Positions 8,041-51,875 of a DNA stretch of 64,000 nucleotides are shown in pieces (position 1 is the stretch's first letter; the number at the start of each line of letters is the position of its first letter). The DNA is from Pseudomonas iranensis. Lineage in GTDB: Bacteria; Pseudomonadota; Gammaproteobacteria; Pseudomonadales; Pseudomonadaceae. A program made the position numbers and the translations under genes. The stretch covers positions 2,232,001-2,296,000 of the forward strand of contig NZ_CP077092.1 of NCBI RefSeq assembly GCF_014268585.2, read 5' to 3'. The notes under the pieces were generated by a model that made no database searches, was not told where the DNA came from, and saw only the letters and a list, made by a program, of their open reading frames with translations.

Positions 8041-8074
8041 CTTTCTTGCAGACACATTTTTCAAGGAAAGCGCG

Positions 8075-8815: not shown

Positions 8816-8849
8816 GACCGCCTCATCTATCATTTTCAGGAGGCCAGTC

Positions 8850-9833
8850 ATGGCTGTTGCTCTGGGGTTTTCCGTGCGGCCGTTGCTGCCGCAGCGCGGA
8901 CGTTTGCCGCTGTTGGTCGAGGCGGGCGATGCCGACACCGATCTGTTGGCGGTATTCGATGAATTGAAGGCCTTGGTCGACGAGCACCTGCTGCGCGACG
9001 GTGGTGTGCTGTTTCGCGGTTTTCGCCTCGATGGCGCCGAGCAGTTCCGCCAGTTTGCCGCGAGTTTCGGCCATCCATTGCTCAACTACGAGTTCGGCTC
9101 GACGCCGCGCACCAACGTCACTCAAGGCGTGTACACCTCCACCGAATACCCGGCGCACCAGAGCATTCCGTTGCACAACGAGCAAGCCTATTCCCGCGAC
9201 TGGCCGATGAAGATCTGGTTCTACAGCATGATCGCCGCCAGGTCCGGCGGCGAGACGCCGATTGCCGACAGCCGCGAAGTCTACCGGCGCATCCCCGTGG
9301 CGATCCGCGAGCGTTTTGTCAGCAAAGGCCTGATGTACGTGCGCAACTTCGGCAATGGCCTAGATGTCGCTTGGGAAGACGTGTTCAGCACCGAAGACCG
9401 TGAAGTCGTCGAGGCCTACTGCAAGGCCCACGGCATTGTCTGCGAATGGAAGGACGACGGTGAGCTGCGCACGCGGCAGACCTGTCAGGCGGTGGCGGTG
9501 CACCCGGTGACCGGCGACCACGTCTGGTTCAATCAGGCGCACCTGTTTCACATCTCCAACCTGCCAGCGGACGTGCGCGAAAGCCTGCTCGACATCGTTG
9601 ACGAAGAAGACCTGCCGCGTAACGTCTATTACGGCGACGGCTCGCCGATCGAAGACGAAGTGCTGGCGCAGATTCGTGCGGTGCTCGACGACTGTGCGAT
9701 CAGTTTCCCCTGGCAGGAGGGCGATGTGCTGATGCTCGACAACATGCTTTCGGCTCACGCGCGCTCACCGTTCGAAGGGCCGCGCAAAGTCATCGTGGCG
9801 ATGGCCGAGGGGCATTCGCAGGACGTGCGCTGA
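8850..9833 (+). CDS. SyrP-like TauD-family aspartate beta-hydroxylase
   Basis: A 327-residue Fe(II)/2-oxoglutarate dioxygenase. The start at ATG 8850 is set by CAGGAGG 6 bases upstream. The iron-binding motif is H109-x-E111 (P-L-H-N-E-Q-A-Y), the H-x-E form found in SyrP-type enzymes, with a distal His in L-S-A-H-A-R and an Arg in G-P-R-K-V that would bind 2-oxoglutarate. SyrP-like enzymes hydroxylate aspartate bound to a carrier protein. The first module of the second NRPS here is predicted to load Asp, so this gene explains a beta-hydroxyaspartate, one of the iron ligands of the siderophore. Confidence 0.87.
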   Translation: MAVALGFSVRPLLPQRGRLPLLVEAGDADTDLLAVFDELKALVDEHLLRDGGVLFRGFRLDGAEQFRQFAASFGHPLLNYEFGSTPRTNVTQGVYTSTEYPAHQSIPLHNEQAYSRDWPMKIWFYSMIAARSGGETPIADSREVYRRIPVAIRERFVSKGLMYVRNFGNGLDVAWEDVFSTEDREVVEAYCKAHGIVCEWKDDGELRTRQTCQAVAVHPVTGDHVWFNQAHLFHISNLPADVRESLLDIVDEEDLPRNVYYGDGSPIEDEVLAQIRAVLDDCAISFPWQEGDVLMLDNMLSAHARSPFEGPRKVIVAMAEGHSQDVR

Positions 9834-9939: not shown

Positions 9940-9963
9940 TAAATCGTTGCGCGGGCCATTCGT
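9940..9963 (+). promoter_or_regulatory. PvdS promoter of the NRPS operon
   Basis: TAAAT (9940-9944), 16 bases, CGT (9961-9963), an exact match, ending 57 bases before the start of the first NRPS gene. Confidence 0.82.
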
Positions 9964-10020: not shown

Positions 10021-13000
10021 ATGAATGCCGCAGACGCACAGAAACTAGCCCGCCGCTTTATCGAATTGCCTCAGGACAAACGCCGTCTGTTCCTCGCCGG
10101 CATGGCCCGCGAAGGCATCGATTTTGCGCAGCTGCCCATGACCGCCTGCGACGGCATCGCCGAGCGTGACGGCCTGTCTTACGCGCAGCAGCGCATGTGG
10201 TTTCTCTGGCAACTGGAGCCGACCAGCGCCGCCTACAACCTGCCGATGGCGGTGCGTCTGGAGGGCGATCTGAACGTCGAGGCACTGGAACAGGCCTTCA
10301 GCCGTCTGGCGGCGCGCCACGAATGTTTGCGCACCACCTTCGGCCAGGACGGCGAGCGTGCCTTCCAGCGTGTGGCCGAACCAAAGCCACTGAAGTTGCC
10401 GGTAACTGACTTGAGCGAATTGCCCCAAGCCCAGCGCTGGCCGCTGGCGCAGCAGCACATGATGGCCGAGGCGACCCAGGCCTTCGACCTGCAGAACGGC
10501 CCGCTGCTGAGCCTGCGGCTGTTGCGCCTGGCCGCGCAGGAACACGTGCTGCTGCTGACCCTGCATCACATCATCGCCGACGGCTGGTCGATGAACATTC
10601 TGATCGACGAATTCATGCGCACTTACGACGCGCTGGTCGCCGGGCGTGAACCGACGCTGGCGCCCTTGACCGTGCATTACCGCGACTATGCGCTGTGGCA
10701 GCGCAGCTGGCTGGAGGCCGGTGAGCGCGAGCGGCAACTGGACTACTGGCGCACGCAACTGGGCGACGAACATCCCGTGCTGGAATTGCCCACCGACCGC
10801 GCTTATCCGGCGCAAGCCAGCCATCAAGGCGCACGCCTGGAAACGGTGATCGACGCAGCCCTGCGCGAAGAACTGAAAAATCTTGCCCAGCGTCAGGGGG
10901 TGACCTTGTTCGTGGTGTTGCTGGCAGCGTTCAAGACCCTGTTGCATCGCTACAGCGGCCAGACCGATATTCGTGTCGGCGGGCTGATTGCCAACCGCAC
11001 CCGCAGTGAAACCGAAGGGTTGATCGGCTTCTTCGTCAACACCCAGATTCTGCGCAGCGTGGTCACCGCACAAACGCCATTCGCCGAGCTGCTGCAGAAC
11101 CTGCGCCAGGCCGCCCTCGGCGCCCAGGCCCATCAGGATCTGCCGTTCGACGCCCTGATCGAAGCCCTGCAACCGGCGCGCAGCCAGAGCCACAATCCGC
11201 TGTTTCAAGTGATGTTCAACCACCAGCCGCTGGTCACCGATTTGCACCAGGCGCAACTCGCTTCGGGCTTGCGCGTGGGCTATCTGAGCGAGGAACAACT
11301 GGCCGGCAGCGCTCGGCAACATGCGGCCACCAGCGACCTGATGCTCGACACTCGCGAGGAGGGCGAGCAACTGTTTGCCGCCTTCACGTACGCCACGGAT
11401 ATTTTCGACGCCGCGACCATCGCCGCGCTGGCCGGGCATTGGCGCAACATTCTCCAGTCGGTGTGCCGCGATCCGCAGCAGTTGATCGGCGAAGTGGCGA
11501 TGCTCGCCGACAGCGAACGCCACGGGTTGATCCAGGCCACAGCGCCAGCGCCTCGCTTTATCAGCGTGCAAAGCTTGTTCGAAGCGCAGGTCGCGCGCGC
11601 TGCGCAAATGCCGGCGGTGCTGTTGGCCACCGCGCCTTCACGGGCATTCAGCTACGACGAACTAAACGTTCGAAGCAATCGCTTGGCCCATCAGTTGCGC
11701 GCACAGGGTGTCGGCCCGGACGTGCTGGTCGGCGTCGCACTGGGGCGTTCGCTGGAATTGGCGGTGGCGCTGCTGGCGGTGCTCAAGGCCGGCGGTGCCT
11801 ATGTGCCGCTGGATCCGCAAACCCCGGCCGAACGCTTGCGCCATGTGCTCGCTGACAGTGGTTTGCAACTGTTGCTCAGTGATCAGCAAAGCCTCGCCAA
11901 GCTGCCGCCACTGGATGGCATCGAGTGCCTGTCTCTGGAGCAATTGCCCGACAGCGAGCAGAGCGACAACCTGCCGGTCACGGTCGAGGCTGACAACCTC
12001 GCTTACGTGATCTACACCTCTGGCTCCACCGGGCGGCCGAAAGGCGTGGCGGTCAGTCATGGCGCGCTGAGCGAGTTCATCGCCCGCGCCATCGACTACA
12101 GCGATCTGCGCGAAGGCGACCGGGTTCTGCAATTCGCCACCAGCAGTTTCGATGGCTTTGTCGAGCAGTTTTTCCCACCGCTGTGCCATGGCGCCAGCGT
12201 GGTCATGCGCGATGCGCCGTTGTGGGACAGCGCGACGCTGCATCAGGTGATAATCGATCAGGGCATCACTCTGGCCGACCTGCCGGCGGCTTATTGGTAT
12301 TGGCTGGTGCAGGAATACGCGGCGAAACCGCCGGCCAGTTTCGGCGCGCTGCGGCAGATTCACGTTGGCGGCGAAGCCATGGCGGTGGACGGTTTGCGCT
12401 TGTGGCAACAGGCCGGGCTCGGCCATGTGCGCCTGCTCAACACCTACGGCCCGACCGAGGCCACGGTGGTCTCGACGATTCATGACTGCACCGCGCTGAC
12501 CGCACAGGACGTGTCGTGGCGTGGCATGCCGATCGGCCACGCACTGGCAGCGCGGCGTCTGTACGTGCTCGACGATGATATGAACCTGCTGCCGCAAGGC
12601 GCGGTGGGCGAGTTGTACATCGGTGGGCCGGGGCTGGCGCGCGGTTATCACCGTCAGCCGAGCCTCAGCGCTGAGCGGTTCATCGCCGACCCTTTCGCCG
12701 ACGGCCAGCGCCTGTACCGCACCGGCGACCGTGCGCGGCTGCGCGGCGATGGCGCGCTGGAATATGTCGGCCGGGTCGATCATCAAGTGAAGATTCGCGG
12801 CTTCCGCATCGAACTGGGCGAGATCGAATCGCGCCTGCAGCAATGTCCGGGCGTTCGCGAAGCAGTGGTGCTGGCGGTGCCGTTCGCCGGCGGTGCGCAA
12901 CTGGTCGCCTACGTGGTGACGGAGTTGGCAGTGCTCGCGAGCACGGCAACGCAAACTGCGTTCCGCCAGCAGACCCGGGCCGTGCTGCAAGCCAGCCTGC

Positions 13001-13418
13001 CGGATTACATGGTGCCGGGGCATCTGCTGTTGCTGGCGAACCTGCCGCTGACGCCGAGTGGCAAGCTCGACCGCAAGGCCTTGCCAGCGCCGGATCCGGC
13101 GCAGTTGCAGGGCGATTACCGCGCCCCGCAATCGCCGGCCGAACAATGTCTGGCGCAGGTCTGGGCCGAGGTGCTGCACGTGCCGCGTGTGGGCCTGGAC
13201 GATCATTTTTTTGAACTGGGCGGCCACTCGTTGCTGGCCGCGCAGGTGATTGCCCGGGTCAAGGAGCAGATGGGCGTGGTGCTGCCGCTGCGCAGCCTGT
13301 TCGAAAAACCGCTGCTCGCGGATCTCGCCGAGGTGCTTGAGCAACTGGCCGAGGCGAGCGGCGACGACGACTGGTCCGACATGGATCAGTTCATGAATGC
13401 TTTGCAAGGAGAAGAAGT

Positions 13419-13422
<4 letters not shown>
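10021..13422 (+). CDS. Siderophore NRPS 1: C-A-PCP, predicted L-Lys
   Basis: 1133 residues, one module. An N-terminal docking-like segment (about 1-45) is shared with the next synthetase. The C domain (about 50-480) has H-H-I-I-A-D-G and an LCL-type start. The A domain (about 530-1020) has Y-T-S-G-S-T-G-R-P-K-G near 665. The PCP carries L-G-G-H-S-L near 1066. Reading the ten specificity positions from A4-A5 gives D-G-E-D-H-G-T-V-V-K, which I know as the lysine code of pyoverdine synthetases. There is no E domain, so L-Lys is expected. It would accept the acylated Glu-Tyr-Dab chromophore precursor made by PvdL, which is outside the window. AAGGA lies 8 bases upstream; the stop overlaps the next start (ATGA). 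Confidence 0.92.
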
Positions 13423-21242
<7,820 letters not shown>

Positions 21243-21255
21243 GAGGGAAAAACGC

Positions 21256-24200
21256 GTGCAAGAGTTAATCGAGTCGGTAGGACAACTTTCGGCTAAGCAA
21301 AGAAAGGCTCTGGCGGTTCTGCTCAAGCAGAAAGGCGTCAACCTCTTTGACATTGCCCCGGTTTTCAAGCGCACGGCTGAAGAGCCGTTGCTGCTGTCCT
21401 ACGCTCAGCAGCGCCAGTGGTTCCTCTGGCAGTGGGCACCGCACAGCGCGGCCTACAACATTCCGACGGCCCTGCGCTTGCAGGGGCCGCTGGATGTGCC
21501 GGCACTGGAACGCAGCATCGCGGCGCTGATCGAGCGCCACGAAACCTTGCGCACGGTGTTCTCTCAAGACAGCGCGCAACCCTTGCAAGTGGTCCTGCCC
21601 GCAGGACCTTTTACCCTCGATATTCACAACCTGAGCGCTGATCTGGCGAATGACCCGGAGCACTCGATCGAGGCTTTCGTCCAGACCCAGAGCCAGAAGA
21701 CTTTCGATCTGCAGCACGGCCCGTTGCTGCGTGCCGCGCTGCTGCAGGTCAGCCCTGATGACCATGTGCTGGTGCTGACCCTGCACCACATCGTTTCCGA
21801 TGGCTGGTCGCTGCAAGTGATGATCGAGGAACTGGTGCAACTCTATGCCGGTTTCAACCTCGGTCACGACGCCGGTCTGCCGGCCCTGCCGATTCAATAC
21901 GCCGATTACGCCTTGTGGCAGCGCCAGTGGATGGAGGCCGGTGAGCAGGAGCGACAACTGGCCTACTGGCAGGAAAAGCTCGGCGGCGAACAACCGGTGC
22001 TGGAACTGCCGCTTGATCGCCCGCGCGCGGTCGATCAAAGCTTCGCCGGCGCCAGCCATAACCTGATTCTTGATCCGGCGCTGAGCAATGCCCTCAAGGC
22101 CTTTGCCCGGCAGGAAAACGTTACCCTGTTCGTGTTGCTGCTGGCCTCGTTTCAGGCCTTGCTGCATCGCTACAGCGGGCAAAGCGACATCCGTGTCGGC
22201 GTGCCGGTGGCCAACCGTGGCCGGGTGGAAATCGAGCGCCTGATCGGCTTCTTCGTCAACACCCAGGTGCTCAAGGCGGATGTCGACGCAGAGCTGCCGT
22301 TTATCGAACTGCTGCGTCAGGTCAAACAGACGGCGCAGGAGGCGCAGGCGCATCAGGATTTGCCCTTCGAGCAACTGGTCGAAGCGCTGGAACCGGGCCG
22401 CAGCCTCAGCCACAGTCCGCTGTTCCAAGTGATGTTCAACCACCAGGCCGAGCGCCGCGCAAGCGTCGCCACACGCCTCAACGGCCTGAACATCGAGCCG
22501 CTGGAATGGCAGCGCCAGACCGCGCAATTCGACCTGACCCTCAACACCACCGAACAGGCCCACGGCATCGAAGCGGTGCTCAAGTACGCCACTGACCTGT
22601 TCGACGCAGCGACCATCGAGCGCCTGGCGCAACACTGGACCGCGCTGTTGCAAGCGATCATCGCCGAGCCGAGCCAGCGCATCGGCCAATTGTCGATGCT
22701 CGACGCCGGCCAGCAGCAACAGCTGTTGGCGCAATGGAATCCGTCGCTGATTGAACAACCGCTGACCCAGTGCATCCAGCAAGCCATCGAGGCCCAGGCC
22801 GAGCGGCATGCCGATGCGGTGGCGGTGAGCTGTGCCGGGCAACGCCTGACCTACGCCGAACTCAATCACCGCGCCAACCTGTGGGCGCATACGCTGATCG
22901 AGCAGGGCGTCGGCCCGGACGTGCGCGTCGGCCTGGCGGTGGAGCGTTCGCTGGACATGATCGTCGCTATTCTCGCGGTGCTGAAGGCCGGCGGCGCCTA
23001 TGTGCCGCTGGACCCGAGCTACCCGGATGACCGCTTGAGCTACATGATCGACGACAGCGGTATTCAATTGCTGTTGACCCAGGGCCATTTGCTCGGGCAG
23101 CTGCCGCTGCCGCCGGGGCTGATCTGCCTCGATCTGGATCAAACGCCGGAGCACGGCATCGCAAGCAACCCGCCATGCCTGACCACGCCGGACAATCTGG
23201 CCTACGTCATCTACACCTCCGGTTCCACCGGCAAACCCAAGGGCGCGCTACTGCCGCACGGCAACGTGATGCGCCTGTTCAGCGCCACCGAGCAGTGGTT
23301 TGATTTCGGCGCGCAGGACAGCTGGACGCTGTTCCATTCCTACGCGTTCGACTTTTCGGTGTGGGAGATTTTCGGCGCGCTGCTGTACGGCGGCAAACTG
23401 GTGGTGGTGCCCCACGACGTCAGCCGTTCGCCGGAGGATTTCTACACGCTGCTGTGCGATGAAAATGTCACGGTGTTGAACCAGACGCCGTCGGCGTTCA
23501 AGCCGCTGATGCAGGTCGCCTGCGAGTCGAGCCGCAGCAACGCCCTGCGTTATGTGGTGTTCGGCGGCGAGGCGCTGGAAGTACAAAATCTGCGTCCGTG
23601 GTTCGAGCGTTTTGGCGACCGCACGCCGACGCTGATCAACATGTACGGCATCACCGAAACCACCGTGCACGTGACTTACCGGCCGTTGTCGCTGGCGGAT
23701 CTGCAGAGCAATCACAGCAGCCCGATCGGCGCACCGATTGTCGACCTGTCGTGGTACTTGCTCGACAGTTCGCTCAACCTGGTGCCGCAAGGCTGCATCG
23801 GTGAGTTGTACATCGCTGGCGCCGGTCTGGCCCGTGGTTATCTGAATCAGGCCGGCATGAGCGCCACGCGCTTCGTGCCCGATCCGTTCAACCGCAGGGC
23901 CGGCCAGCGTCTGTACCGTACCGGCGACCTCGCACGGCTGCGCGGCGATGGGGTGATCGAGTACATCGGCCGTATCGACCACCAAGTGAAGATCCGTGGT
24001 TTCCGCATCGAGCTCGGTGAAATCGAAGCGCAACTGCTCAAGCATCCGCAGGTGCGCGAAGCGGTGGTGCTGGCGGTGGACGGCGTCAGCGGCCAGCAAC
24101 TGGCGACCTGGGTCGTGCCGGTTGAGACATTGAACGCGGACGAGCAGGGCGCGTTGCGCGATTCGATCAAGGCGCACCTGCGCGAAACCCTGCCGGATTA

Positions 24201-27200
24201 TATGGTCCCGGTCAGTTGGGCGTTCCTCGACCGACTGCCGCTGACCGCCAACGGCAAGCTCGATCGCAAACAACTGCCGCAGCCGGATGTTGCGCAGGTG
24301 CAAGAGGCCTACGCGGCGCCGCGCAGTGAACTGGAACAGCGTCTGGCGGAGATCTGGCAGGACGTGCTCAAGGTTGAACGGGTCGGCCTTCACGACAACT
24401 TTTTCGAGCTGGGCGGCGATTCGATCATATCGATTCAAGTGGTCAGTCGCGCGCGGCAGGCCGGCATTCGCTTTACGCCCAAGGACATTTTTCAGCACCA
24501 GACCGTGCAGCGTCTGGCCACCGTCGCGCAGCAGAGCGATGCGGTGCAGACGGAGCAGGGCGAGGTGCTTGGCGAAGCGCCGCTGACGCCGATCCAGCAG
24601 TATTTCTTCCACAGCGACATCCCGGCGCGGCATCACTGGAACCAGTCGATCCTGCTGACCCCGGCGAAAGCCCTGCAAGCCACGGCGCTGCAACAGGCGC
24701 TGGCGCAGGTGCAAAAGCAGCATGACGCCTTGCGTCTGCGTTATCGCCAAACCGAGCAGGGCTGGCAGCAAAGCCACGGCACGGCGGATCAGCCACAAGC
24801 GTTGTTGCGCACTTTCACGCTGGACGACAGCGCGGCATTGCCAGCGCTGTGCCTGGACCTGCAACGCAGCCTCGATCTGCAAAACGGCCCGCTGATCCGC
24901 GCGGCGCTGATCGATTTGCCGGACGCCAGTCAGCGTCTGTTGCTGGTGATTCATCACCTGGTGGTCGATGGCGTGTCGTGGCGGATCCTGCTCGAAGATC
25001 TGCAAAGCGCCTATCAGCAGATCAGCAGCGGACAGAGCGTGCACCTGCCGGCCAAGACCAGCGCGTTCAAGGGCTGGGGTTTGCGCCTGCAAGAACATGC
25101 GCGCAGCGCTGCGCTGAACAGTGAGCTGAGTTACTGGCGCGAGCAGTTGCGCGACGCGCCGCTCGGTTTGCCATTGGACAATCCGCAGGGCCAATTGAAC
25201 AACCGCTTCGAACGCAGCGTCGACACGCGGCTGGACGCCGAACGCACTCGCCAGCTGCTGCAACAGGCCCCGGCGGCCTACCGCACTCAGGTCAACGACC
25301 TGCTGCTGACCGCACTGGCGCGGGTGCTTTGCGAGTGGACCGCTAGCGACAGCGCGTTGGTGCAGCTCGAAGGCCATGGCCGCGAAGACCTCTTCGATGA
25401 CATCGACTTGAGCCGCACCGTGGGTTGGTTCACCAGCATGTTCCCGGTACGCCTGACACCAAACGCCAGCCTGGAAAGCTCGATCAAAAGCATCAAGGAG
25501 CAACTGCGCGCGATCCCGAACAAGGGCATCGGCTATGGCTTGCTGCGTTATCTCGGCACCGCCGACGCACAAGCGGCGTTGCATGAGCTGGCGCAACCGC
25601 AGGTGACGTTCAACTACCTCGGCCAGTTCGATAACAACTTCGATGAAGACGCCTTGTGGCGGCCTGCCACCGAAGACAAGGGCGCCGGTCAGGACGCAAA
25701 CGCGCCGATGGCCAACTGGCTGACCATCGATGGACGGGTTTATCAGGGCCAGTTGAGCCTGACCTGGACCTACAGCAGCGACGTCTTCGAAGAAGCGACC
25801 ATTGACGCTCTGGCCCGCGCCTACGAAGTGGCGCTGAGCGAATTGATCGACCACTGCCTCAGCCATGCGGGCGGCCTCACGCCGTCCGACGTGCCGCTGG
25901 CCGGTTTGTCCCAGGCGCATCTGGACAGCCTGCCGATTGCCGCCCAGCGCATCGAGGACATCTATCCGCTGGCGCCGATGCAGCAGGGCATTCTGTTCCA
26001 CAGCCTGTACGACGCCGACGCCAGCGCCTACGTTTATCAGATGCTGCTGGACATCGACGGCCTCGACGTTGCGCGGTTCCAGCAAGCCTGGCAACGGGTG
26101 GTCGATCGCCATGAAGTGCTGCGCGCAGGTTTCATCTGGGGCCGCGATGGCCTGGACGCGCCGTTGCAGGTGATCAATCGCCAACTGACCCTGGAAATGC
26201 CGGAAATCGACGTGCGCGATGCCGCTGATCTGCCGGCGGTGCTTGAAGCACGGGCGCAGGCCGACCGTGAACGCGGGTTCGATCTGCAGAATCCGCCGCT
26301 GTTGCGCCTGTGCCTGTTGCGCACTGCCGACGATCGCCATCGACTGATTTTCACTTGTCACCACATCCTCATGGATGGCTGGAGCAACTCGCGGATGTTC
26401 GGCGAAGTGCTGCAGGATTACGCCGGCCAGCCGGTGTCGAGCGCGCAGGGCCGCTATCGCGATTTTCTGGTCTGGCTGCAGGACCAGGACAAGGCGGCCG
26501 CGCAGGAATTCTGGCGCGGGCAACTGGCCGAACTCGACGAGCCGACCCGACTGGCCTCGGCCTGCCACGGACGCACCGTGCCGGGGCCGGGCAAACAGAT
26601 GCATCGTCTGCATTTCGATGAAGCGTTGACCCAGCGTCTGAACAGCTTCTCCCGTCAGCAACAGGTGACCCTCAACAGCCTGGTGCAGGCGGCATGGCTG
26701 CTTGTGTTGCAGCGCTACACCGGCCAGGCCACGGTGGCGTTTGGCGCCACGGTATCCGGGCGTCCGGTGGATTTGCCGGGCATCGAGGAGCAACTGGGGC
26801 TGTTCATCAACACCTTGCCGGTGATCGCCAGCCCGCAGGCCAGCCTCAGCGTCGGCGATTGGGTGCGCAGCGTGCAGGACAAGAACCTGCTGTTGCGCGA
26901 CTACGAACAGACGCCGTTGCAGGACATTCAGCGTCTGGCGGCGTTGAGTGGCGAAGCGTTGTTCGACACCTTGCTGGTGTTCGAGAACTACCCGGTATCC
27001 GACGCGTTGGAGGCCAATCCGGGCGGGCTGCGTTTTTCCGGTCTGGAGCATCGCGAGCAGACCAACTACGGTCTGACCCTGATTGCCGGCGCCAGCGAAG
27101 TGCTCAACCTCGATTTCAACTACCTCACCGAACACTTCGCCGAGCGCAGCGTGCTTGCTCTGGCGGCGCATTTGCGTGAAGTGCTGGAGCAATTTATCGC

Positions 27201-30200
27201 AGCGCCGCAACGGGCACTCGGCGAGATCGGTCTGCTGCCGCTGGCCGAACGGCAGACGCTGGCGCAGTGGAGCGACAATCACGCGGCTTATCCGGCTGAG
27301 CGGTTGATCTCGCAGAGCTTTGAAGCACGGGTGGCGGCGCATCCTCAGGCACTGGCGTTGAGTCATGCCGGCGTGGCCCTGAGCTACGGCGAACTGAACC
27401 GGCGGGCAAACCAGTTGGCCCGGCATCTGGTGACGCTGGGTGTCACCGCCGAAGTGCGCGTCGGCGTGGCGCTGCCGCGTTCGGCGGAACTGGTGATCGC
27501 CCTGATGGCGGTGCTCAAGGCCGGCGGCACCTACGTGCCGCTGGACCCGGACTACCCGGCCGACCGCGTGGCCTACATGCTCGACGACAGCCAGGCGAAA
27601 GTCCTGCTGACCCAGCAAGCCTTGCTGGCGCAACTGCCGTCCAGCGAAGCCCACGTGGTGCTGGTCGAGGCCGGCGGCGAGGCGTTCGCCGCGCAAGCGC
27701 CGGACAACCTGCCGGCGCGCGCCGACTCGGCCAATCTTGCCTACGTGATCTACACCTCCGGTTCCACCGGCAAACCGAAAGGTGTGGCCATCGCCCATCG
27801 CAACGTGCAGGCGCTGATTCATTGGTCCGCCGAGGTCTACAGCGAGGACGATCTGCAAGGCGTGCTGGCCTCGACGTCGGTGTGCTTCGACCTGTCGGTG
27901 TGGGAGATTTTCGTCACCCTGGCGCGTGGCGGGTCCATGGTCATGGCGCGCAATGCCCTTGAGCTGCCGGACTTGCCCGAGCGTGATCAGGTGCGCCTGA
28001 TCAACACCGTGCCGTCGGCGATTGCCGCGTTGCAACGCATCGGCCAGATCCCGTCGTGTGTGCGCATCATCAATCTGGCCGGCGAGCCGCTCAAGCAGGC
28101 GCTGGTCGACACCTTGTACCGCGAAACTTCGGTCGCCCACGTTTACGATCTGTACGGGCCTTCCGAAGACACCACGTATTCGACCTGGACTCGTCGTGAA
28201 CTCGGCGGTCAGGCCAATATCGGCCGGCCATTGCGCAATACCACTGCGTACCTGCTCGATGAGCAATTGCAGGAAGCGCCGCTCGGCATTGCAGCGGAGC
28301 TGTATCTGGCCGGTGAGGGCATCACCCGTGGCTATCTGTTGCGCCCGGGCCTGACTGCCGAGCGTTTCGTGCCGAATCCGTTGGCGAGCAACGGCGAGCG
28401 CATGTACCGCACCGGCGACCTGACGCGTTTCATGGACGACGGCCGTATCGAATACGTCGGTCGCATCGACCATCAGGTCAAAGTGCGCGGCTTCCGTATC
28501 GAACTCGGCGAAATCGACGCGCGTCTGCTGGCCCAGGCCAGCGTGCGCGAAGGCGTGGTGCTGGCGGTGGAAGGCGTCGGCGGCCAGCAACTGGTGGCTT
28601 ATGTGGTGCCGGCCGAGGCCGATCAAAGCCTGGCGCAACTGGACTCGCTGAGTGCTGAGTTGCAAGCCGCGCTCAAGGCGCATCTGCCGGACTACATGGT
28701 TCCGACGCAGTGGCTGTTCCTCGAACAGTTGCCGCTGACACCCAACGGCAAACTTGATCGCAAGGCCTTGCCGGCACCGGATGCCAGCCAGGCACAACGC
28801 GATTACGTCGCGCCGTCGACGCCGCTGGAGCAGCAACTGGCCGAGGTCTGGCAGGACATTCTGAAGATCGAGCAGGTCGGCGTGACCGACAATTTCTTCG
28901 CCCTCGGCGGCGATTCGATCATCTCGATTCAACTGGTCAGCCGCGCGCGGCAGCAGGGCATTTGCTTCACGCCCAAGGACCTGTTCCAGCAGCAGACGGT
29001 GCAGAAACTGGCCGTAGTGGTTTCGCATGCAGACGTGCAATCCGCCAGCGCTGCCGACTACCCGTTGGCGCAACTGGATCAGGCGCAGCTCGATGCCTTG
29101 CCGGTGCCGGCAGAGCTGATCGAAGACGTCTATCCGCTGTCGCCGATGCAGGAAGGCATGCTCTTCCACACCCTGTCGGATAACGGCAGCAGCCTCTATG
29201 TGCAACAGGTCAGCCTGCCGATCAAGGGCCTCGACGTTGAGCGTTTCCGCCGGGCCTGGGAATTCATCATCGTCCGTCAGGCGATCCTGCGCACCAGTTT
29301 CCATTGGCAGGATGGGCTGGCCAAGCCGTTGCAGGTCGTCCATCGCCAGGCGCCGCTGCAGATGCAGGTGCTCGATTGGCGTGGGCAGGACTGCAGCGAG
29401 GCGGCGATTGCCGAGTTCGCCAGCGCTGATCGTGCGCTGGGCTTCGACTTGGCTGAAGCGCGATTGCAGCGGGTGACCCTGCTGCAGCTGGGCGACGAGC
29501 AGTACCAGATGATCTGGACCAGCCACCACATCCTGATGGACGGCTGGAGCAGTTCGCGGCTGTTCGGCGAGGTCTTGCAGTACTACTCCACGGGCGAGGT
29601 GACTGGCGAAAATGGCCGCTATCGCGACTTCATTGCCTGGTTGCAGGCGCAGGATCAGGATGCCCAGGAGCTGTTCTGGAAGGCGCGTCTGGCGGTGGTC
29701 AACGAACCGACCGCGCTGAGTCAGGCGATGCACCCGCGTCACAGTGCCGACGTTACCGGTCACGATGCGCTCTATTCGAATTGGGACAAGGCGCAAACCG
29801 CGCGCCTGCTGGAGTTCTGCCGCGATTTGCGCATCACCCCCAACACGCTGATTCAGGGCGCGTGGCTGCTGCTGTTGCAACGCTACACCGGCCAGCAGAC
29901 GGTGACCTTCGGCGCCACCGTATCAGGGCGTCCGGAAAGTCTGCCGAACGTCGGCAACATGCTCGGCCTGTTCATCAACACCTTGCCGATCATTCAGACC
30001 CCGCAGGCCGATCAGCGTCTGGCCGACTGGCTGGGTGAAGTGCAGGCCTACAACCTCGACATCCGCGATTACTCCCAGGCACCGCTGGCCGATGTGCAGC
30101 GCTGGTCGAACCTCGGTGGTCAGGCGCTGTTCGACAGCATCGTGGTGTTCGAGAACTTCCCGATCGACGAGCGCTTGCAGGAAGAAACCAACACCGAGCT

Positions 30201-33200
30201 GACCTTCGGCAAATCCATCGGCCACGGCGTGACCAACGTGCCGATGGACCTTGCGGTGATGCTCGGCGACGAGTTGTCGATCGAGTACCTGTACCTGCGC
30301 AGCCACTTCAGCGCCGAGGCGGTAGAAGGCATTCGCCTGACCCTGGAAAACACCCTCGCGGCGATGATGGCCGCGCCGTATGAGCGGCTGGGCAACTTGC
30401 AGCGTCTGTCCGCTGAACAATGGCAAGCGGCGCAGGCCTGGAGCGCCGAGCCGGCGCACCGCCATGAGCCTCGCCTGTTGCCGGAGTTGATCAGTCGTCA
30501 TGCGCAACAGCAGCCCGACGCGATCGCGGTGCAATGCGCCGGCGAAAGCCTGAGCTACGCCGAACTGGAGCGGCAGGCCAATCGACTTGCGCAGTGCCTG
30601 ATTGCCCACGGCGCCGGGCCGGAAGTGGTGATCGGCGTGGCATTGCCGCGCTCGCTGGAAATGCTGGTGAGTTTCCTCGCCGTGCTCAAGAGCGGTGCGG
30701 CGTACGTGCCGCTGGACATCGATTATCCGCCCGAGCGCTTGACGTACATGATCGAAGATTCGCGCATGGCCCTGCTGCTGACGCAAACCAGCCTGCGCGC
30801 GACATTGCCTGCACCACAAGGCGTGCGGCGTCTGGAAATCGATCAACTCTATCGCAGTCTTTACAGCGATGCTGCCCCGGTCTGCGATGTTCACGAGCAG
30901 AGCCTGGCCTATCTGGTTTACACCTCCGGTTCCACCGGACGGCCGAAAGGCGTGGCCGTGACCCAGGGACCGCTGAGCATGCATTGCCAGGCCATCGCCG
31001 AGCTGTACGAAATGGACGCGAGCAGTTGCGAGCTGCACTTCATGTCGTTCGCTTTCGACGGTGCCCATGAACGCTGGCTGAGTACCTTGTACAGCGGCGG
31101 TCGTCTGGTGATCCGCGACGGTTGCCTGTGGACGCCGGAGCAGACCTATCAGGCCCTGCATGATTACGGCGTGACCATCGCTTGTTTCCCGCCGGCCTAT
31201 CTCAAACAACTCGCCGAGTACGCCGCCGCCAGTGGCATCGCACCACCGCCAGTGCGCATCTACTGCTTCGGTGGCGATGCGGTGCCGGAGCAGACCTTCG
31301 AACAGGTCAAAGCCGCGTTGCGTCCGCAATACTTCACCAACGGCTACGGCCCGACCGAAACCGTGGTCACGCCGATGCTCTGGAAAGTCGCCATCAGCCA
31401 GCACTGCGAAGCGGCGTATGCGCCGATCGGTCGCGCCGTCGGTGCGCGTTCGCTGTACGTGCTCGACGACGATCTGAATCCGCTGCCGCCGGGTTTTGCC
31501 GGTGAGTTGTACATCGGCGGTTACGGCGTCGCTCGAGGTTATTACGGGCGCCCCGACCTGACCGGCGAACGCTTCGTGCCCAACCCGTTTGTGCCCGGCG
31601 AGCGCCTGTACCGCAGCGGCGATCTGGTGCGCCGCCGCGCGGACGGCGTGGTCGATTACGTCGGGCGCATCGACCATCAGGTCAAGGTGCGTGGCTTCCG
31701 CATCGAGCTGGGCGAAGTCGAGGCCAGCCTGCGTCAGTTGCCGGCGGTGAGCGATGCGCTGGTGATTGCCCGCGACAATGCCTCCGGCAAGCAACTGATC
31801 GGTTATGTGGTCACCGCCACGGGTGATGATATCGGCGATGAACTCAAGGCCGGGCTGCGTGCTTCGCTGCCGGAATACATGGTGCCGGCGCAGATCGTCT
31901 GCCTCAGCGCATTCCCGGTCACGCCCAACGGCAAACTCGATCGCAAGGCCCTGCCGGAGCCGGAGTTCAAAAGTGACGAATATGTAGCGCCGCGCACCGA
32001 GCAGGAACGCCTGCTGGCGGAAATCTGGGCGCAAGTGTTGCAGGTCGAGCAGGTCGGTATCAGCGATAACTTCTTTGAACTGGGCGGCGATTCGATCCTC
32101 AGCCTGCAAGTGATCTCGCGGGTGCGAAACCACCCGACGCTGCAGATGGAGCTGAAGCTGCGCGATCTGATGCGCTATCAAACCATCGCCGGCATTCTCG
32201 AGCAGCAAGTGGCGAAGGAGGGCGCCGGGCAAGCGCTGCCGGACCTGACTCAGGTTGCCGCAGAGGGCGCGTTCAATCTGCTGCCGATCCAGCAATGGTT
32301 CTTCGCCGAAGGCATGGCCGAGGCGCATCACTACAACCAGTCGTTGCTGCTCAGCGCACGTCAGCCGCTGGATCTCGATGCACTGGAACAGGCGCTGGGC
32401 TTGATCGAACAGCATCACGATTCGCTGCGCCTGCGTTTTTCCAACGACGGCGGACGCTGGTTGCAGCGCTACAGCACCAGCGCCTCCGACGAGGCTGTGC
32501 TGTGGCGCCGTGAAGCGCAAAGCAGCGAAGAGGTCGAAGCCTTGGCCAACCTCGCGCAGCGTAGCCTCAAACTCAATGACGGGCCGGTCTGGCGGGTCAT
32601 GCATGTGGCGTTGCCGGATGGTCAGGCGCGGTTGCTGGTGGTAATTCATCACCTGGTGGTCGACACCGTGTCGTGGCGGATTCTGCTCGACGATCTGAAA
32701 GTCGCTTATGAGGCGTGCGTGCAGGGGCTGGTGCCGCAGCTGCCGATTCGCACCAGCAGTTACCGTTCGTTTGCCGAAGCGTTGCAGGCGCAGGCACCAG
32801 TCATAGCCGAGCAGGAATTGAGCTATTGGCTGGAGCAACTGGATCAGCCCGGCATTGATCTGCCGTGCGATAACCCGCGTGGCAAGAACCTTGTGCGGCA
32901 ACAGGCGCAGGCACGGCTCAAGCTGTCCCGCGAGCACACCGAACAACTGCTCAAACAGGCCCCGGCGGTGTACGGCACGCAGATCAACGACTTGCTGCTG
33001 TCAGCGCTCAGCCGCGCGCTGTGCCGCTGGAGCCAGCAACCGTCGGCGCTGATTCTGCTTGAAGGGCACGGTCGCGAAGACCTCTTCGAATCGATCGACC
33101 TGAGCCGCAGCCTCGGCTGGTTCACCAGCATGTTCCCGGTGCGTTTGCGCCCGGACAGCGACGACATCGGCCAGTCGATCATCGATGTGCAGGCGCAACT

Positions 33201-33570
33201 GGCGGGCGTACCGCAGAAGGGCATCGGCTACGGCGTGTTGCGTCATCTGGCCGGGCCGGAAATCTCGGCGCAACTGGCTGCATTGCCGCAGGCACGGGTG
33301 ACGTTCAATTACCTCGGGCAGTTCGACCAGAGCTTCGATGAACAGGCGTTGCTGGTGCCGGCACTGGAAGAGACCGGCGACAACTACAGCCTCAAGGCGA
33401 ACCTGGGCAACTGGCTGGAAATCGTCGGCCAGGTCTATGACGGGCAACTGGCCTTGCGCTGCATTTACAGCAGCCAGCGTTACCGCGCCGGCACCATGAA
33501 TGCGCTGATGAGCGATTACCAGCGCGAGCTTGAAGCGTTGATCGAACATTGCGTGGCACGGGTGGGTTGA
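21256..33570 (+). CDS. Siderophore NRPS 3: C-A-PCP-E-C-A-PCP-C-A-PCP-E, predicted D-Thr, L-Ala, D-OHOrn, no thioesterase
   Basis: 4104 residues, GTG start after GAGAGGGA; it occupies the pvdD position next to fpvA. Module 1: LCL-type C, A code D-F-W-N-V-G-M-V-H-K (threonine), PCP near 1053, E about 1108-1535. Module 2: C (Y-P-L-A-P-M-Q-Q-G near 1570), A code D-L-W-N-N-A-L-T-Y-K (alanine-like), PCP near 2552, no E domain. Module 3: C (Y-P-L-S-P-M-Q-E-G near 2624), A code D-G-E-C-C-G-G-V-T-K, close to hydroxyornithine codes, PCP near 3610, terminal E about 3673-4100. In the last E domain H-H-x-x-x-D-G reads H-H-L-V-V-D-T. The protein ends there without a TE domain, so chain release must come from another enzyme. 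Confidence 0.92.
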   Translation: MQELIESVGQLSAKQRKALAVLLKQKGVNLFDIAPVFKRTAEEPLLLSYAQQRQWFLWQWAPHSAAYNIPTALRLQGPLDVPALERSIAALIERHETLRTVFSQDSAQPLQVVLPAGPFTLDIHNLSADLANDPEHSIEAFVQTQSQKTFDLQHGPLLRAALLQVSPDDHVLVLTLHHIVSDGWSLQVMIEELVQLYAGFNLGHDAGLPALPIQYADYALWQRQWMEAGEQERQLAYWQEKLGGEQPVLELPLDRPRAVDQSFAGASHNLILDPALSNALKAFARQENVTLFVLLLASFQALLHRYSGQSDIRVGVPVANRGRVEIERLIGFFVNTQVLKADVDAELPFIELLRQVKQTAQEAQAHQDLPFEQLVEALEPGRSLSHSPLFQVMFNHQAERRASVATRLNGLNIEPLEWQRQTAQFDLTLNTTEQAHGIEAVLKYATDLFDAATIERLAQHWTALLQAIIAEPSQRIGQLSMLDAGQQQQLLAQWNPSLIEQPLTQCIQQAIEAQAERHADAVAVSCAGQRLTYAELNHRANLWAHTLIEQGVGPDVRVGLAVERSLDMIVAILAVLKAGGAYVPLDPSYPDDRLSYMIDDSGIQLLLTQGHLLGQLPLPPGLICLDLDQTPEHGIASNPPCLTTPDNLAYVIYTSGSTGKPKGALLPHGNVMRLFSATEQWFDFGAQDSWTLFHSYAFDFSVWEIFGALLYGGKLVVVPHDVSRSPEDFYTLLCDENVTVLNQTPSAFKPLMQVACESSRSNALRYVVFGGEALEVQNLRPWFERFGDRTPTLINMYGITETTVHVTYRPLSLADLQSNHSSPIGAPIVDLSWYLLDSSLNLVPQGCIGELYIAGAGLARGYLNQAGMSATRFVPDPFNRRAGQRLYRTGDLARLRGDGVIEYIGRIDHQVKIRGFRIELGEIEAQLLKHPQVREAVVLAVDGVSGQQLATWVVPVETLNADEQGALRDSIKAHLRETLPDYMVPVSWAFLDRLPLTANGKLDRKQLPQPDVAQVQEAYAAPRSELEQRLAEIWQDVLKVERVGLHDNFFELGGDSIISIQVVSRARQAGIRFTPKDIFQHQTVQRLATVAQQSDAVQTEQGEVLGEAPLTPIQQYFFHSDIPARHHWNQSILLTPAKALQATALQQALAQVQKQHDALRLRYRQTEQGWQQSHGTADQPQALLRTFTLDDSAALPALCLDLQRSLDLQNGPLIRAALIDLPDASQRLLLVIHHLVVDGVSWRILLEDLQSAYQQISSGQSVHLPAKTSAFKGWGLRLQEHARSAALNSELSYWREQLRDAPLGLPLDNPQGQLNNRFERSVDTRLDAERTRQLLQQAPAAYRTQVNDLLLTALARVLCEWTASDSALVQLEGHGREDLFDDIDLSRTVGWFTSMFPVRLTPNASLESSIKSIKEQLRAIPNKGIGYGLLRYLGTADAQAALHELAQPQVTFNYLGQFDNNFDEDALWRPATEDKGAGQDANAPMANWLTIDGRVYQGQLSLTWTYSSDVFEEATIDALARAYEVALSELIDHCLSHAGGLTPSDVPLAGLSQAHLDSLPIAAQRIEDIYPLAPMQQGILFHSLYDADASAYVYQMLLDIDGLDVARFQQAWQRVVDRHEVLRAGFIWGRDGLDAPLQVINRQLTLEMPEIDVRDAADLPAVLEARAQADRERGFDLQNPPLLRLCLLRTADDRHRLIFTCHHILMDGWSNSRMFGEVLQDYAGQPVSSAQGRYRDFLVWLQDQDKAAAQEFWRGQLAELDEPTRLASACHGRTVPGPGKQMHRLHFDEALTQRLNSFSRQQQVTLNSLVQAAWLLVLQRYTGQATVAFGATVSGRPVDLPGIEEQLGLFINTLPVIASPQASLSVGDWVRSVQDKNLLLRDYEQTPLQDIQRLAALSGEALFDTLLVFENYPVSDALEANPGGLRFSGLEHREQTNYGLTLIAGASEVLNLDFNYLTEHFAERSVLALAAHLREVLEQFIAAPQRALGEIGLLPLAERQTLAQWSDNHAAYPAERLISQSFEARVAAHPQALALSHAGVALSYGELNRRANQLARHLVTLGVTAEVRVGVALPRSAELVIALMAVLKAGGTYVPLDPDYPADRVAYMLDDSQAKVLLTQQALLAQLPSSEAHVVLVEAGGEAFAAQAPDNLPARADSANLAYVIYTSGSTGKPKGVAIAHRNVQALIHWSAEVYSEDDLQGVLASTSVCFDLSVWEIFVTLARGGSMVMARNALELPDLPERDQVRLINTVPSAIAALQRIGQIPSCVRIINLAGEPLKQALVDTLYRETSVAHVYDLYGPSEDTTYSTWTRRELGGQANIGRPLRNTTAYLLDEQLQEAPLGIAAELYLAGEGITRGYLLRPGLTAERFVPNPLASNGERMYRTGDLTRFMDDGRIEYVGRIDHQVKVRGFRIELGEIDARLLAQASVREGVVLAVEGVGGQQLVAYVVPAEADQSLAQLDSLSAELQAALKAHLPDYMVPTQWLFLEQLPLTPNGKLDRKALPAPDASQAQRDYVAPSTPLEQQLAEVWQDILKIEQVGVTDNFFALGGDSIISIQLVSRARQQGICFTPKDLFQQQTVQKLAVVVSHADVQSASAADYPLAQLDQAQLDALPVPAELIEDVYPLSPMQEGMLFHTLSDNGSSLYVQQVSLPIKGLDVERFRRAWEFIIVRQAILRTSFHWQDGLAKPLQVVHRQAPLQMQVLDWRGQDCSEAAIAEFASADRALGFDLAEARLQRVTLLQLGDEQYQMIWTSHHILMDGWSSSRLFGEVLQYYSTGEVTGENGRYRDFIAWLQAQDQDAQELFWKARLAVVNEPTALSQAMHPRHSADVTGHDALYSNWDKAQTARLLEFCRDLRITPNTLIQGAWLLLLQRYTGQQTVTFGATVSGRPESLPNVGNMLGLFINTLPIIQTPQADQRLADWLGEVQAYNLDIRDYSQAPLADVQRWSNLGGQALFDSIVVFENFPIDERLQEETNTELTFGKSIGHGVTNVPMDLAVMLGDELSIEYLYLRSHFSAEAVEGIRLTLENTLAAMMAAPYERLGNLQRLSAEQWQAAQAWSAEPAHRHEPRLLPELISRHAQQQPDAIAVQCAGESLSYAELERQANRLAQCLIAHGAGPEVVIGVALPRSLEMLVSFLAVLKSGAAYVPLDIDYPPERLTYMIEDSRMALLLTQTSLRATLPAPQGVRRLEIDQLYRSLYSDAAPVCDVHEQSLAYLVYTSGSTGRPKGVAVTQGPLSMHCQAIAELYEMDASSCELHFMSFAFDGAHERWLSTLYSGGRLVIRDGCLWTPEQTYQALHDYGVTIACFPPAYLKQLAEYAAASGIAPPPVRIYCFGGDAVPEQTFEQVKAALRPQYFTNGYGPTETVVTPMLWKVAISQHCEAAYAPIGRAVGARSLYVLDDDLNPLPPGFAGELYIGGYGVARGYYGRPDLTGERFVPNPFVPGERLYRSGDLVRRRADGVVDYVGRIDHQVKVRGFRIELGEVEASLRQLPAVSDALVIARDNASGKQLIGYVVTATGDDIGDELKAGLRASLPEYMVPAQIVCLSAFPVTPNGKLDRKALPEPEFKSDEYVAPRTEQERLLAEIWAQVLQVEQVGISDNFFELGGDSILSLQVISRVRNHPTLQMELKLRDLMRYQTIAGILEQQVAKEGAGQALPDLTQVAAEGAFNLLPIQQWFFAEGMAEAHHYNQSLLLSARQPLDLDALEQALGLIEQHHDSLRLRFSNDGGRWLQRYSTSASDEAVLWRREAQSSEEVEALANLAQRSLKLNDGPVWRVMHVALPDGQARLLVVIHHLVVDTVSWRILLDDLKVAYEACVQGLVPQLPIRTSSYRSFAEALQAQAPVIAEQELSYWLEQLDQPGIDLPCDNPRGKNLVRQQAQARLKLSREHTEQLLKQAPAVYGTQINDLLLSALSRALCRWSQQPSALILLEGHGREDLFESIDLSRSLGWFTSMFPVRLRPDSDDIGQSIIDVQAQLAGVPQKGIGYGVLRHLAGPEISAQLAALPQARVTFNYLGQFDQSFDEQALLVPALEETGDNYSLKANLGNWLEIVGQVYDGQLALRCIYSSQRYRAGTMNALMSDYQRELEALIEHCVARVG

Positions 33571-33639: not shown

Positions 33640-34602
33640 ATGTCGTTACACCCTGATCTGGAAGCTTTCCTCGACCTCGCTCAAGACAGCCAGGACGCCG
33701 GCCTGCCGGCCATGCACCAACTGACCCCGAGCGAGGCCCGCGCCACCTTCGAACAGACCACCGCGCAACTGCGCTGGCCGGCGCCGCAGGATGTTGAACT
33801 CACCGAGATTGAGACACTGGCCCGCGATGGTGCGGCGCTGGCGTTGCGTTTGTATCGACCCAACGGTGTTGGATCGCCGCTGCCGGTGCTGGTGTATTTC
33901 CACGGTGGCGGATTTGTCGTTGGCAGTCTGGATTCCCATGACGGCGTCTGCCGCGAGTTTTGCCAGCGCACGCCGTGTGCGGTGCTTTCGGTCGGTTATC
34001 GACTGGCGCCGGAGCATCGCTTTCCGACGGCGCTGGAGGATGGCGAGGACGCTTTGGCCTGGCTGGCCGAACAGGCTGCGAACCTCGGACTGGATGGTTC
34101 GCGCGTTGCGTTTGGCGGTGATAGCGCGGGTGCCACATTGGCGACGGTATTGGCGATTCAGGCGGTGCGGCAGCCGCACACGGTGGCTATCGCGCCGAAG
34201 GCGCAGTTGTTGTGTTATCCGGTGACCGATGCTTCACGGGTGCATGATTCGCGGCTGTTGTTTGGCGAGGGGTATTTGCTCGAGAACGACACGCTGGAGT
34301 GGTTTTATCAGCACTATGCGCGTGGGCCGGAGGATTATCTGGATTGGCGCTTTTCGCCGTTGCTGGCGGAGGATTTGCGTGGGGTGGCGCCGGCTATTGT
34401 GGTATTGGCCGGGTTTGATCCGCTGCTGGATGAGGGGCAGGCTTATGTCGACAGGCTGCGTGGGCAGGGGTTTGAGGTCGACGTCGAGGTTTGTGCCGGG
34501 TTGACTCATGATTTGTTGCGGTTGGGGGCGGTGGTGCCTGGGGTTCTGGAGGTGTATTTGCGGGTGGGTGGGGCGCTTGCGCGGGCTCTTGAGATTGGGT
34601 GA
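33640..34602 (+). CDS. HSL-family alpha/beta hydrolase, candidate in-trans release enzyme
   Basis: A 320-residue alpha/beta hydrolase fold-3 enzyme of the hormone-sensitive-lipase type. The oxyanion motif H-G-G-G is at 88-91, nucleophile G-D-S-A-G has Ser162, the acid is in A-G-F-D-P-L, and the base in G-L-T-H-D. The start at ATG 33640 has AAGGA 9 bases upstream. No signal peptide is present, so it acts in the cytoplasm. It is 69 bases after NRPS 3 with no promoter that I see between them, so it is probably in the NRPS operon. Because NRPS 3 lacks a TE domain, hydrolysis or cyclisation of the terminal hydroxyornithine by this enzyme is a reasonable inference, but ordinary esterase activity is equally possible. 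Confidence 0.82.
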   Translation: MSLHPDLEAFLDLAQDSQDAGLPAMHQLTPSEARATFEQTTAQLRWPAPQDVELTEIETLARDGAALALRLYRPNGVGSPLPVLVYFHGGGFVVGSLDSHDGVCREFCQRTPCAVLSVGYRLAPEHRFPTALEDGEDALAWLAEQAANLGLDGSRVAFGGDSAGATLATVLAIQAVRQPHTVAIAPKAQLLCYPVTDASRVHDSRLLFGEGYLLENDTLEWFYQHYARGPEDYLDWRFSPLLAEDLRGVAPAIVVLAGFDPLLDEGQAYVDRLRGQGFEVDVEVCAGLTHDLLRLGAVVPGVLEVYLRVGGALARALEIG

Positions 34603-43573: not shown

Positions 43574-43618
43574 CCTAGCTTGGATAAAGCCTGCTTCATG
43601 GCTGACACAGGTAGGGCA

Positions 43619-47837: not shown

Positions 47838-47844
47838 AGGTCGA

Positions 47845-50979: not shown

Positions 50980-51044
50980 GCAGGGTTCCGGCCAGTGGTT
51001 GCGGCCCGTCGCAAGGCACGACAGACACAGGGGCTGTCCTGTAA

Positions 51045-51068
51045 ACGAGGCATGGGCGACGGAATTTA
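51045..51068 (-). promoter_or_regulatory. PvdS promoter of pvdRT-opmQ
   Basis: On the minus strand TAAAT (51068-51064), 16 bases, CGT (51047-51045), exact, ending 65 bases before the pvdR start. Confidence 0.82.
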
Positions 51069-51141
51069 GCCGCAGACACATCGAGTTACCGCACGCCGGG
51101 CCACCACTATTTGTCCGGGATATGGAATCAACTCTTTAAAT

Positions 51142-51742: not shown

Positions 51743-51753
51743 TCCGCACCGGT

Positions 51754-51777: not shown

Positions 51778-51875
51778 TCCTACTCAACAGACGACCTGCT
51801 GACCTGATTCAGGCCGGTCAGGCCACCCAGGCTTTATTTCCCCGCGTTGAGGGGTTCATCCAGAGGACACTGGAA

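Follow-up and report, generated by a model that had tools for sequence, protein, structure and literature searches.

Probable pseudobactin assembly line of Pseudomonas iranensis, its end without a thioesterase domain and the adjoining HSL-family hydrolase

A stretch of 64,000 nucleotides from Pseudomonas iranensis (assembly GCF_014268585.2, contig NZ_CP077092.1, positions 2,232,001 to 2,296,000 of the forward strand; referred to below as the window) contains three nonribosomal peptide synthetase (NRPS) genes, pvd-type genes, a TauD-type hydroxylase gene, a receptor gene and PvdS-type promoter boxes, and is best read, from its sequence, as encoding the peptide-building part of a pyoverdine pathway. 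The product is very probably pseudobactin, the pyoverdine of Pseudomonas B10, or a stereoisomer of it; this assignment is ordinary and well supported, and pseudobactin itself is already known. The last synthetase, NRPS 3, terminates in an epimerization (E) domain, 4 residues short of the protein end, has no thioesterase (TE) domain and is followed by the gene of a hydrolase of the hormone-sensitive-lipase family (HSL). Among Pseudomonas genomes HSL accompanies one particular code of the terminal adenylation (A) domain, and it probably takes part in the formation of the terminal cyclic hydroxyornithine (cOHOrn). In the literature searched, with subscription journals mostly outside its scope, we found no description of a link between HSL and cOHOrn ends, nor of any HSL role in pyoverdine biosynthesis. 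The off-loading arrangement, rather than the product, is the part worth an experiment.

Assembly line and predicted product

Domain order was determined with Pfam and with profiles built in this analysis, and distributes six modules over the three NRPS genes, the first two of which share 4 bases while a gap of 13 bases separates NRPS 2 from NRPS 3. The codes of modules 1 to 6, obtained from profile alignments of the individual A domains, are DGEDHGTVVK, DLTKIGHVGK, DLWNNALTYK, DFWNVGMVHK, DLWNNALTYK and DGECCGGVTK; the nine code columns were located by known motifs with module 4 as the anchor, and the final K of each code is a convention, not a reading. E domains are found only behind modules 2, 4 and 6. 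The six codes given in a preliminary description of this DNA were thereby reproduced, and the E positions it gave were borne out by the domain search. The genome, 6.07 Mb in a single contig, contains 13 Condensation-family matches, nine in the three window NRPS genes and the other four in pvdL, which lies at a distance of about 2.1 Mb, and the Condensation profile run over the whole genome identified no NRPS besides these genes and PvdL. PvdL is canonical (A-T-C-A-T-C-A-T-E-C-A-T; L088:1857-14855, minus strand), and a PvdY-type acetyltransferase gene (PF13523) is located about 1 kb from pvdL. NRPS 1 is 98% identical to its homologue in P. siliginis SWRI31 (L009) and 69-72% identical to those of the P. 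syringae group, P. gingeri and P. fuscovaginae.

Codes and E positions together give the read-out L-Lys, D-Asp(OH), L-Ala, D-Thr, L-Ala, D-hydroxyornithine (OHOrn), in which the Lys linkage (alpha or epsilon) is not readable and allo-Thr (aThr) and threo-hydroxyaspartate (OHAsp) are predicted at most. The predicted residue order Lys, OHAsp, Ala, Thr, Ala, OHOrn matches the published structure of B10 (PMC4219678). According to the literature, eLys-OHAsp-Ala-aThr-Ala-cOHOrn (989 Da) is the pyoverdine of strains W2Aug36 and B10 (PMC4219678), and that of strain S3a20 is -Lys-OHAsp-Ala-aThr-Ala-cOHOrn with m/z 990.41686 (PMC9925543, PMC8888394). Pseudobactin was the first pyoverdine structure to be solved (PMC6206403), and the window gives a probable gene set for it. 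The preliminary description had proposed pseudobactin as the product, and residue order, the D and L residues implied by the E domains and the terminal OHOrn code all agree with that proposal; the hydroxylations it assumed fit the presence of an Asp-hydroxylase-type and an Orn-hydroxylase-type gene. We take B10 to have D residues at positions 2, 4 and 6 and L residues at 1, 3 and 5, Ala5 thus being L. On chirality the sequence points both ways: the E domains agree with D residues at 2, 4 and 6, whereas two features of the junction between modules 5 and 6, described below, disagree at residue 5. Stand-alone Asp hydroxylases reportedly yield the erythro-L isomer (a result credited to Reitz et al. 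2019), which the E domain of module 2 would convert to threo-D.

By its code, the A domain of module 6 groups with hydroxyornithine modules, as the preliminary description had assumed. DGECCGGVTK ends several lines that match cOHOrn pyoverdines reported from mass spectrometry: L078 and L079, with codes matching Ala-Lys-Thr-Ser-AcOHOrn-cOHOrn (AcOHOrn, acetyl-hydroxyornithine); L075 and L077, matching ...Thr-Thr-Gln-Gly-Ser-cOHOrn; and L140, matching ...Lys-Lys-cOHOrn, both Lys codes being those printed for P. fulva (PMC12195549). These are codes matched to published structures, not same-strain measurements. A different peptide, Lys-OHAsp-Ala-Thr-Ala-X with an open acyl-hydroxyornithine at its end, might be considered, given that some Orn codes, including DGEACGGVTK, do not separate modifications (PMC12283262), and DGEACGGVTK is indeed shared by internal and terminal modules in L134, L167 and L168. 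Such an open end is very improbable here, however, with DGECCGGVTK closing the lines just listed and with the surveyed open-ended hydroxyornithine-like lines having other codes and no HSL.

HSL and the terminal code in Pseudomonas genomes

The first ATG of the HSL gene (33640) lies 69 bases past the end of NRPS 3. The protein is an Abhydrolase_3 member with HGGG and GDSAG motifs and a Ser-Asp-His triad; in 60 aligned HSLs, from 57 genomes of which three are represented twice, the catalytic Ser is conserved in 60, the Asp in 58 (2 gaps) and the His in 57 (3 gaps). Against the LipP1 HSL subfamily model NF058653 the window protein scores 296 bits, under the cut-off of 350. The solved structures nearest to it are esterases and lipases, with one acetyl esterase among the best 60 of 186. 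The missing TE, the HSL gene and the D-donor type of the condensation (C) domain of module 6 were all unreported in the preliminary description.

HSL was surveyed in 119 Pseudomonas genomes with our own cut of E <= 1e-60: 57 genomes are positive, 57 have weaker matches only, which are taken for other family members, and 5 have no match. The terminal code DGE[CA]CGG[VI]TK occurs in all 56 readable HSL-positive genomes (it is unread in G076) and in none of the 27 readable HSL-negative pyoverdine genomes, which may have a second terminal NRPS elsewhere. A Fisher test of HSL against the code gives 1.9e-21, a nominal value computed with 25 negatives instead of 27 and with related genomes treated as independent. 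The negatives derive from 87 PvdO-positive genomes (our own cut of E <= 1e-140, plus G034, matched in two pieces; 80 are above the NCBI cut-off), among which 33 have no HSL. Six of these 33 are unread (G009, G070, G080, G081, G089 and G101); G101 has a TE line coded DAWVFGVVIK 45 kb from pvdO, which was left out of the count. The two-piece pvdO match of G034, a close relative, lies at G034:C1:3041543-3042378, as if the gene were frameshifted. In a set of 78 named loci, from genomes partly overlapping the survey, a terminal cOHOrn module is found in five and HSL follows it in all five, while within the sequence covered none of the 11 TE lines ending in Ser or Thr has HSL.

The terminal residues of the 27 HSL-negative genomes include Ser, Gly, Thr, Ala and others, among them the OHOrn-like codes DGECTGGITK (G045, G077) and DGEGSGGVTK (G071, G061, G092), the lines of G061 and G092 running on into a further C domain. 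Among genomes without PvdO, the HSL-negative lines L236-L238 end in DGECTGGVTK-T-E-TE and L240-L241 in DGESCAGVTK-T-E-TE-TE (L239 is unread). Hydroxyornithine-like terminal codes of other kinds thus do not bring HSL with them. As G023, G086 and G114 are HSL-positive and have no PvdO match, the HSL link may reach beyond pyoverdines. Two unusual arrangements were also seen. The pyoverdine-type lines L250 (G061) and L252 (G092) end in C or C-T after E, with neither TE nor HSL seen there, and five genomes (L216, L223, L228, L230, L234) have a single TE-terminated module on the strand opposite the neighbouring NRPS genes.

The surroundings of HSL vary. An E-terminated NRPS without TE lies just upstream in 18 of the 57 HSL-positive genomes (our own, L120-L134, L145 and L248), and a TE-terminated NRPS at most 0.8 kb upstream in 34; in three (G003, G057, G072) HSL is beside pvdN with the NRPS elsewhere, one is split by a contig break (G002), and one has A-T-TE upstream with its code unread (G076). 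The terminal TE of PvdD-style synthetases is missing from NRPS 3, and because 17 other HSL-positive genomes share this kind of end, it is treated as a variant within the pyoverdine system. HSL as a mere replacement of TE was rejected as the whole story, the terminal NRPS having TE in 39 of the 57 genomes. PvdY is matched in all 57 HSL-positive genomes (weakest match 3e-78), including our own, which retains it though the peptide has no other hydroxyornithine.

The junction before module 6 and the off-loading step

Although an E domain is missing from module 5, the carrier of this module has the motif LGGDSI and the C domain of module 6 (C6) is of the D-donor (DCL) type; about 30 other lines are alike. 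The mean score of C6 is 364 bits against D-donor C domains versus 94 bits against L-donor C domains, the references being C domains at protein starts (L-donor) and C domains after E (D-donor), with OHOrn modules left out of both. Among C domains outside the references, those that follow a carrier are L-type in 26 of 26 cases if the next module is not an OHOrn module; with an OHOrn module next, those following E are D-type in 35 of 35, and those following a carrier in 32 of 35, the three L-type ones belonging to internal modules with other codes. Two protein-start C domains, in L172 and in L152 (the latter truncated at the edge of its locus), are D-type against expectation. The 55 C domains of terminal cOHOrn modules (32 after a carrier, 23 after E; L075 = L125 and L078 = L137 are duplicates) form one clade with a support of 0.999 and no intruder. 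Carrier motifs were counted with our own genome outside the counts: GGDS is found before E in 86 of 86 carriers and before the E-less terminal cOHOrn C domain in 31 of 31, and GGHS before an ordinary C domain in 27 of 27 and at protein ends in 36 of 38. Because carriers before TE also have GGDS (36 of 37), this motif is not specific to E.

The corresponding Ala module retains its E domain in the relatives G113 and G029 (L122, L123), and we infer that module 5 of the window line has lost its E domain but kept its carrier, C6 being retained as well. With an L-configured Ala5, as we assume for B10, C6 would accept an L donor. Against this stands the usual rule, by which a DCL-type C6 predicts D-Ala5, not L-Ala5. 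The product might accordingly be a near relative of pseudobactin with the same order and D-Ala5, C6 requiring a D donor that is supplied otherwise, for example by an epimerase in trans. The scores of C6, the GGDS of carrier 5 and the E domains kept in L122 and L123 all point that way; we consider it improbable nonetheless, as an E domain is absent from module 5 here, the 989-Da structure is taken to contain L-Ala, and 32 of the 55 C domains in the terminal cOHOrn clade come after modules without E, so that the type need not report the donor. E-less junctions before cOHOrn modules provide a natural test of whether the chirality of the donor is checked by DCL-type C domains; they also warn against reading chirality off the type of C domain.

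For the off-loading step, the simplest reading is the loading of acetyl-hydroxyornithine followed by HSL deacetylation, alone or with ring closure. PvdL, encoded elsewhere in the genome, would make the chromophore precursor, to which NRPS 1 to 3 would add L-Lys, D-OHAsp, L-Ala, D-Thr, L-Ala and D-hydroxyornithine, with Asp hydroxylated by the TauD enzyme and Orn by PvdA. PvdY would acetylate the hydroxyornithine and so block its premature cyclisation off the carrier, module 6 would load the acetylated residue, and the E domain of module 6 would convert it to D. HSL would then take off the acetyl group and/or close the six-membered ring, the peptide being freed without TE, and Pvd maturation proteins, exporter and receptor would see to the remaining steps. 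The specific route of protection and deacetylation is advanced tentatively, as one that could well be right. Somewhat more speculatively, cOHOrn pyoverdines may use a dedicated terminal cassette, composed of a penultimate GGDS carrier (with E optional), a monophyletic DCL-type C domain that accepts donors of either chirality, an A domain loading acetyl-hydroxyornithine made by PvdY, and HSL for deprotection and/or cyclisation. Such a cassette, if true, would mean protect, deprotect and cyclise off-loading for a whole siderophore class, and D-donor-type C domains that naturally use L donors.

Published accounts of how the cOHOrn ring forms differ. In one, hydroxyornithine is believed to need acetylation before it can cyclise, PvdYII being responsible for the cOHOrn of the P. 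aeruginosa type II pyoverdine (PMC6206403); another credits ring closure to TE domains (PMC12283262), which the terminal NRPS does not have in 18 of the 57 HSL-positive genomes. HSL makes the question testable through one gene deletion. Several points count against a deacetylating HSL working with PvdY. Besides the credit given to TE domains, they include the 39 genomes with TE on the terminal NRPS, in which HSL is not a simple TE substitute, and the stand-alone type II thioesterase of the cluster, which could perform the release. PvdY is also matched in 21 HSL-negative genomes, its match is partial (about 193-207 of 337 residues) in four HSL-positive ones (G022, G026, G050, G115), and, being near pvdL here, it may be inherited with the pvdL locus.

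Two other roles of HSL were weighed, and both seem rather unlikely. HSL might itself be the ring-closing release enzyme, forming an acyl-enzyme from carrier 6 that is attacked by the hydroxylamine nitrogen, with no acetylation and with PvdY a passenger of the pvdL locus. The association with the terminal code is equally expected in that case, and the conserved Ser-Asp-His and the 18 genomes without TE suit it, but the presence of PvdY in every HSL-positive genome, the reported role of PvdYII (PMC6206403) and the TE of 39 HSL-positive genomes argue against it. Alternatively, HSL might have nothing to do with ring closure and merely hitchhike with cOHOrn modules by recombination, the peptide being released by the type II thioesterase or by spontaneous lactam formation. 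Formation of a six-membered lactam by intramolecular attack on a thioester is chemically easy, the cluster has the thioesterase, and the terminal module moves as a single unit. A hitchhiker would hardly be expected, however, to be kept beside pvdN in three genomes after parting from the NRPS, to be missing from 27 readable pyoverdine genomes with other ends, or to retain its catalytic Ser in 60 of 60 proteins.

Published descriptions bear on these roles in a limited way. In PMC4019867, PMC11366639, PMC8085936 and PMC12195549, mentions of hydrolases or esterases in the main text, as far as excerpts go, led to no HSL link, nor was one obtained from PMC12971057, in which a single mention of an esterase stands outside the context available. 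The NRPS cluster of strain W15Oct28 is described with one thioesterase gene (PMC4219678). In P. putida GB-1, a cOHOrn producer, the receptor gene is numbered directly after the last NRPS gene (PMC4019867), which could mean that no HSL adjoins its NRPS; for comparison, the three surveyed genomes without HSL by the NRPS have one beside pvdN.

Neighbouring genes and comparison with known systems

Table 1. Features of the window (positions in the 64,000-nucleotide stretch; C, condensation; A, adenylation; T, carrier; E, epimerization; TE, thioesterase; aa, amino acids; ORF, open reading frame)
Feature	Position	Strand	Basis or remark
Type II thioesterase, stand-alone	8048..8815	+	PF00975 143.8 bits
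TauD-type dioxygenase, probable Asp beta-hydroxylase	8724..9833	+	PF02668 171.7 bits
PvdS-type promoter box	9940..9963	+	TAAAT-N16-CGT; 57 bases ahead of NRPS 1 start
NRPS 1	10021..13422	+	1133 aa; C-A(Lys)-T
NRPS 2	13419..21242	+	2607 aa; C-A(Asp)-T-E-C-A(Ala)-T
NRPS 3	21256..33570	+	4104 aa, GTG start; C-A(Thr)-T-E-C-A(Ala)-T-C-A(OHOrn)-T-E, without TE
HSL-family hydrolase, candidate cOHOrn deacetylase/cyclase	33640..34602	+	PF07859 230.4 bits; listed ORF from 33583
TonB-dependent siderophore receptor (FpvA position)	35482..37965	-	TIGR01783 364.3 bits, over cut-off
PvdE-type cyclic-peptide export ABC transporter	38081..39730	-	TIGR01194 815 bits, over cut-off
pvdO	39840..40727	-	NF051459 519 bits, over cut-off
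pvdN	40764..42050	-	NF051467 796.4 bits, over cut-off
PvdM-like dipeptidase	42047..43417	-	PF01244; no NCBIfam match; name rests on position
pvdP, intact	43580..45244	+	NF051454 1064.4 bits, over cut-off
OpmQ/PvdT/PvdR-like efflux genes	46443..51081	-	PF02321, PF12704 + PF00005, PF16576
PvdA-type L-ornithine N5-hydroxylase	51732..53213	+	PF13434 364.3 bits, match beginning at residue 58; true start probably later than listed

The listed start of the TauD gene overlaps the thioesterase gene, and the true start is probably later. In L027 (P. cerasi) and L047 (P. fuscovaginae) the gene that precedes the Lys module encodes a protein 72-74% identical to this TauD protein. Seven TAAAT-N15..17-CGT boxes occur in the window against 1.11 expected, a number reached in none of 100 shuffles. 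They precede NRPS 1, pvdM and pvdP and probably also pvdA and pvdR, two genes with listed starts that run over the boxes; the other two are elsewhere, and at least two of the seven are inside other genes. Two minus-strand open reading frames (ORFs) at 43490-45091 mimicked a split pvdP, and a broken gene was rejected, the real pvdP being intact on the plus strand. Of four Formyl_trans_N genes in the genome none is in the window, and absence of PvdF was not concluded from them.

Other features of the window were also identified. An ORF with SCP2 and Cupin_8 domains (6806-9085, minus strand) has a listed start that runs into the oppositely oriented thioesterase and TauD genes; a PvdS-type box at 7981-8004 (minus strand) faces it, so that the gene may be under iron control and start later than listed. 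A tandem array with a period of 136, 8.2 copies and 93% matches occupies 45299-46419 between pvdP and the opmQ-like gene. A terpene cyclase gene (4250-5287, minus strand), whose product scores 409 bits against an NCBIfam cut-off of 400 as a family 2 encapsulin cargo protein, adjoins an MFS gene at 5436-6671.

The window line resembles pseudobactin of B10, W2Aug36 and S3a20 in the order and the hydroxylations predicted for its residues, and in chirality as far as the E domains alone give it. The coelichelin pathway, in which the NRPS CchH presumably has no TE and is served by the esterase CchJ, would likewise combine a hydroxamate-siderophore NRPS lacking TE with a hydrolase encoded by its own gene, though we take it to belong to another phylum and its hydrolase to another family. 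Apart from the Thr described below, the later residues of the P. syringae 1448a line presumably differ as well from those of the window line, and we assume that it has no terminal OHOrn. In its first part P. syringae 1448a is like the window, with an Asp-hydroxylase gene, a single-module Lys NRPS and an Asp module following one another, and with the same first eight code residues, DGEDHGTV (Lys) and DLTKIGHV (Asp), in consecutive modules; its modules are congruent with tandem mass spectrometry data, its Asp hydroxylase is a predicted one, and it differs in the later residues, with Thr there (PMC3207962). The type II pyoverdine of P. aeruginosa resembles the present case in that its cOHOrn is tied to a hydroxyornithine acetylase (PvdYII), while the excerpted review mentions no HSL partner (PMC6206403). 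PvdD of P. aeruginosa PAO1, like NRPS 3, is the last pyoverdine NRPS and is encoded near receptor and pvdE genes; PvdD has its own thioesterase motif (PMC6206403), whereas NRPS 3 ends in an E domain and HSL comes next.

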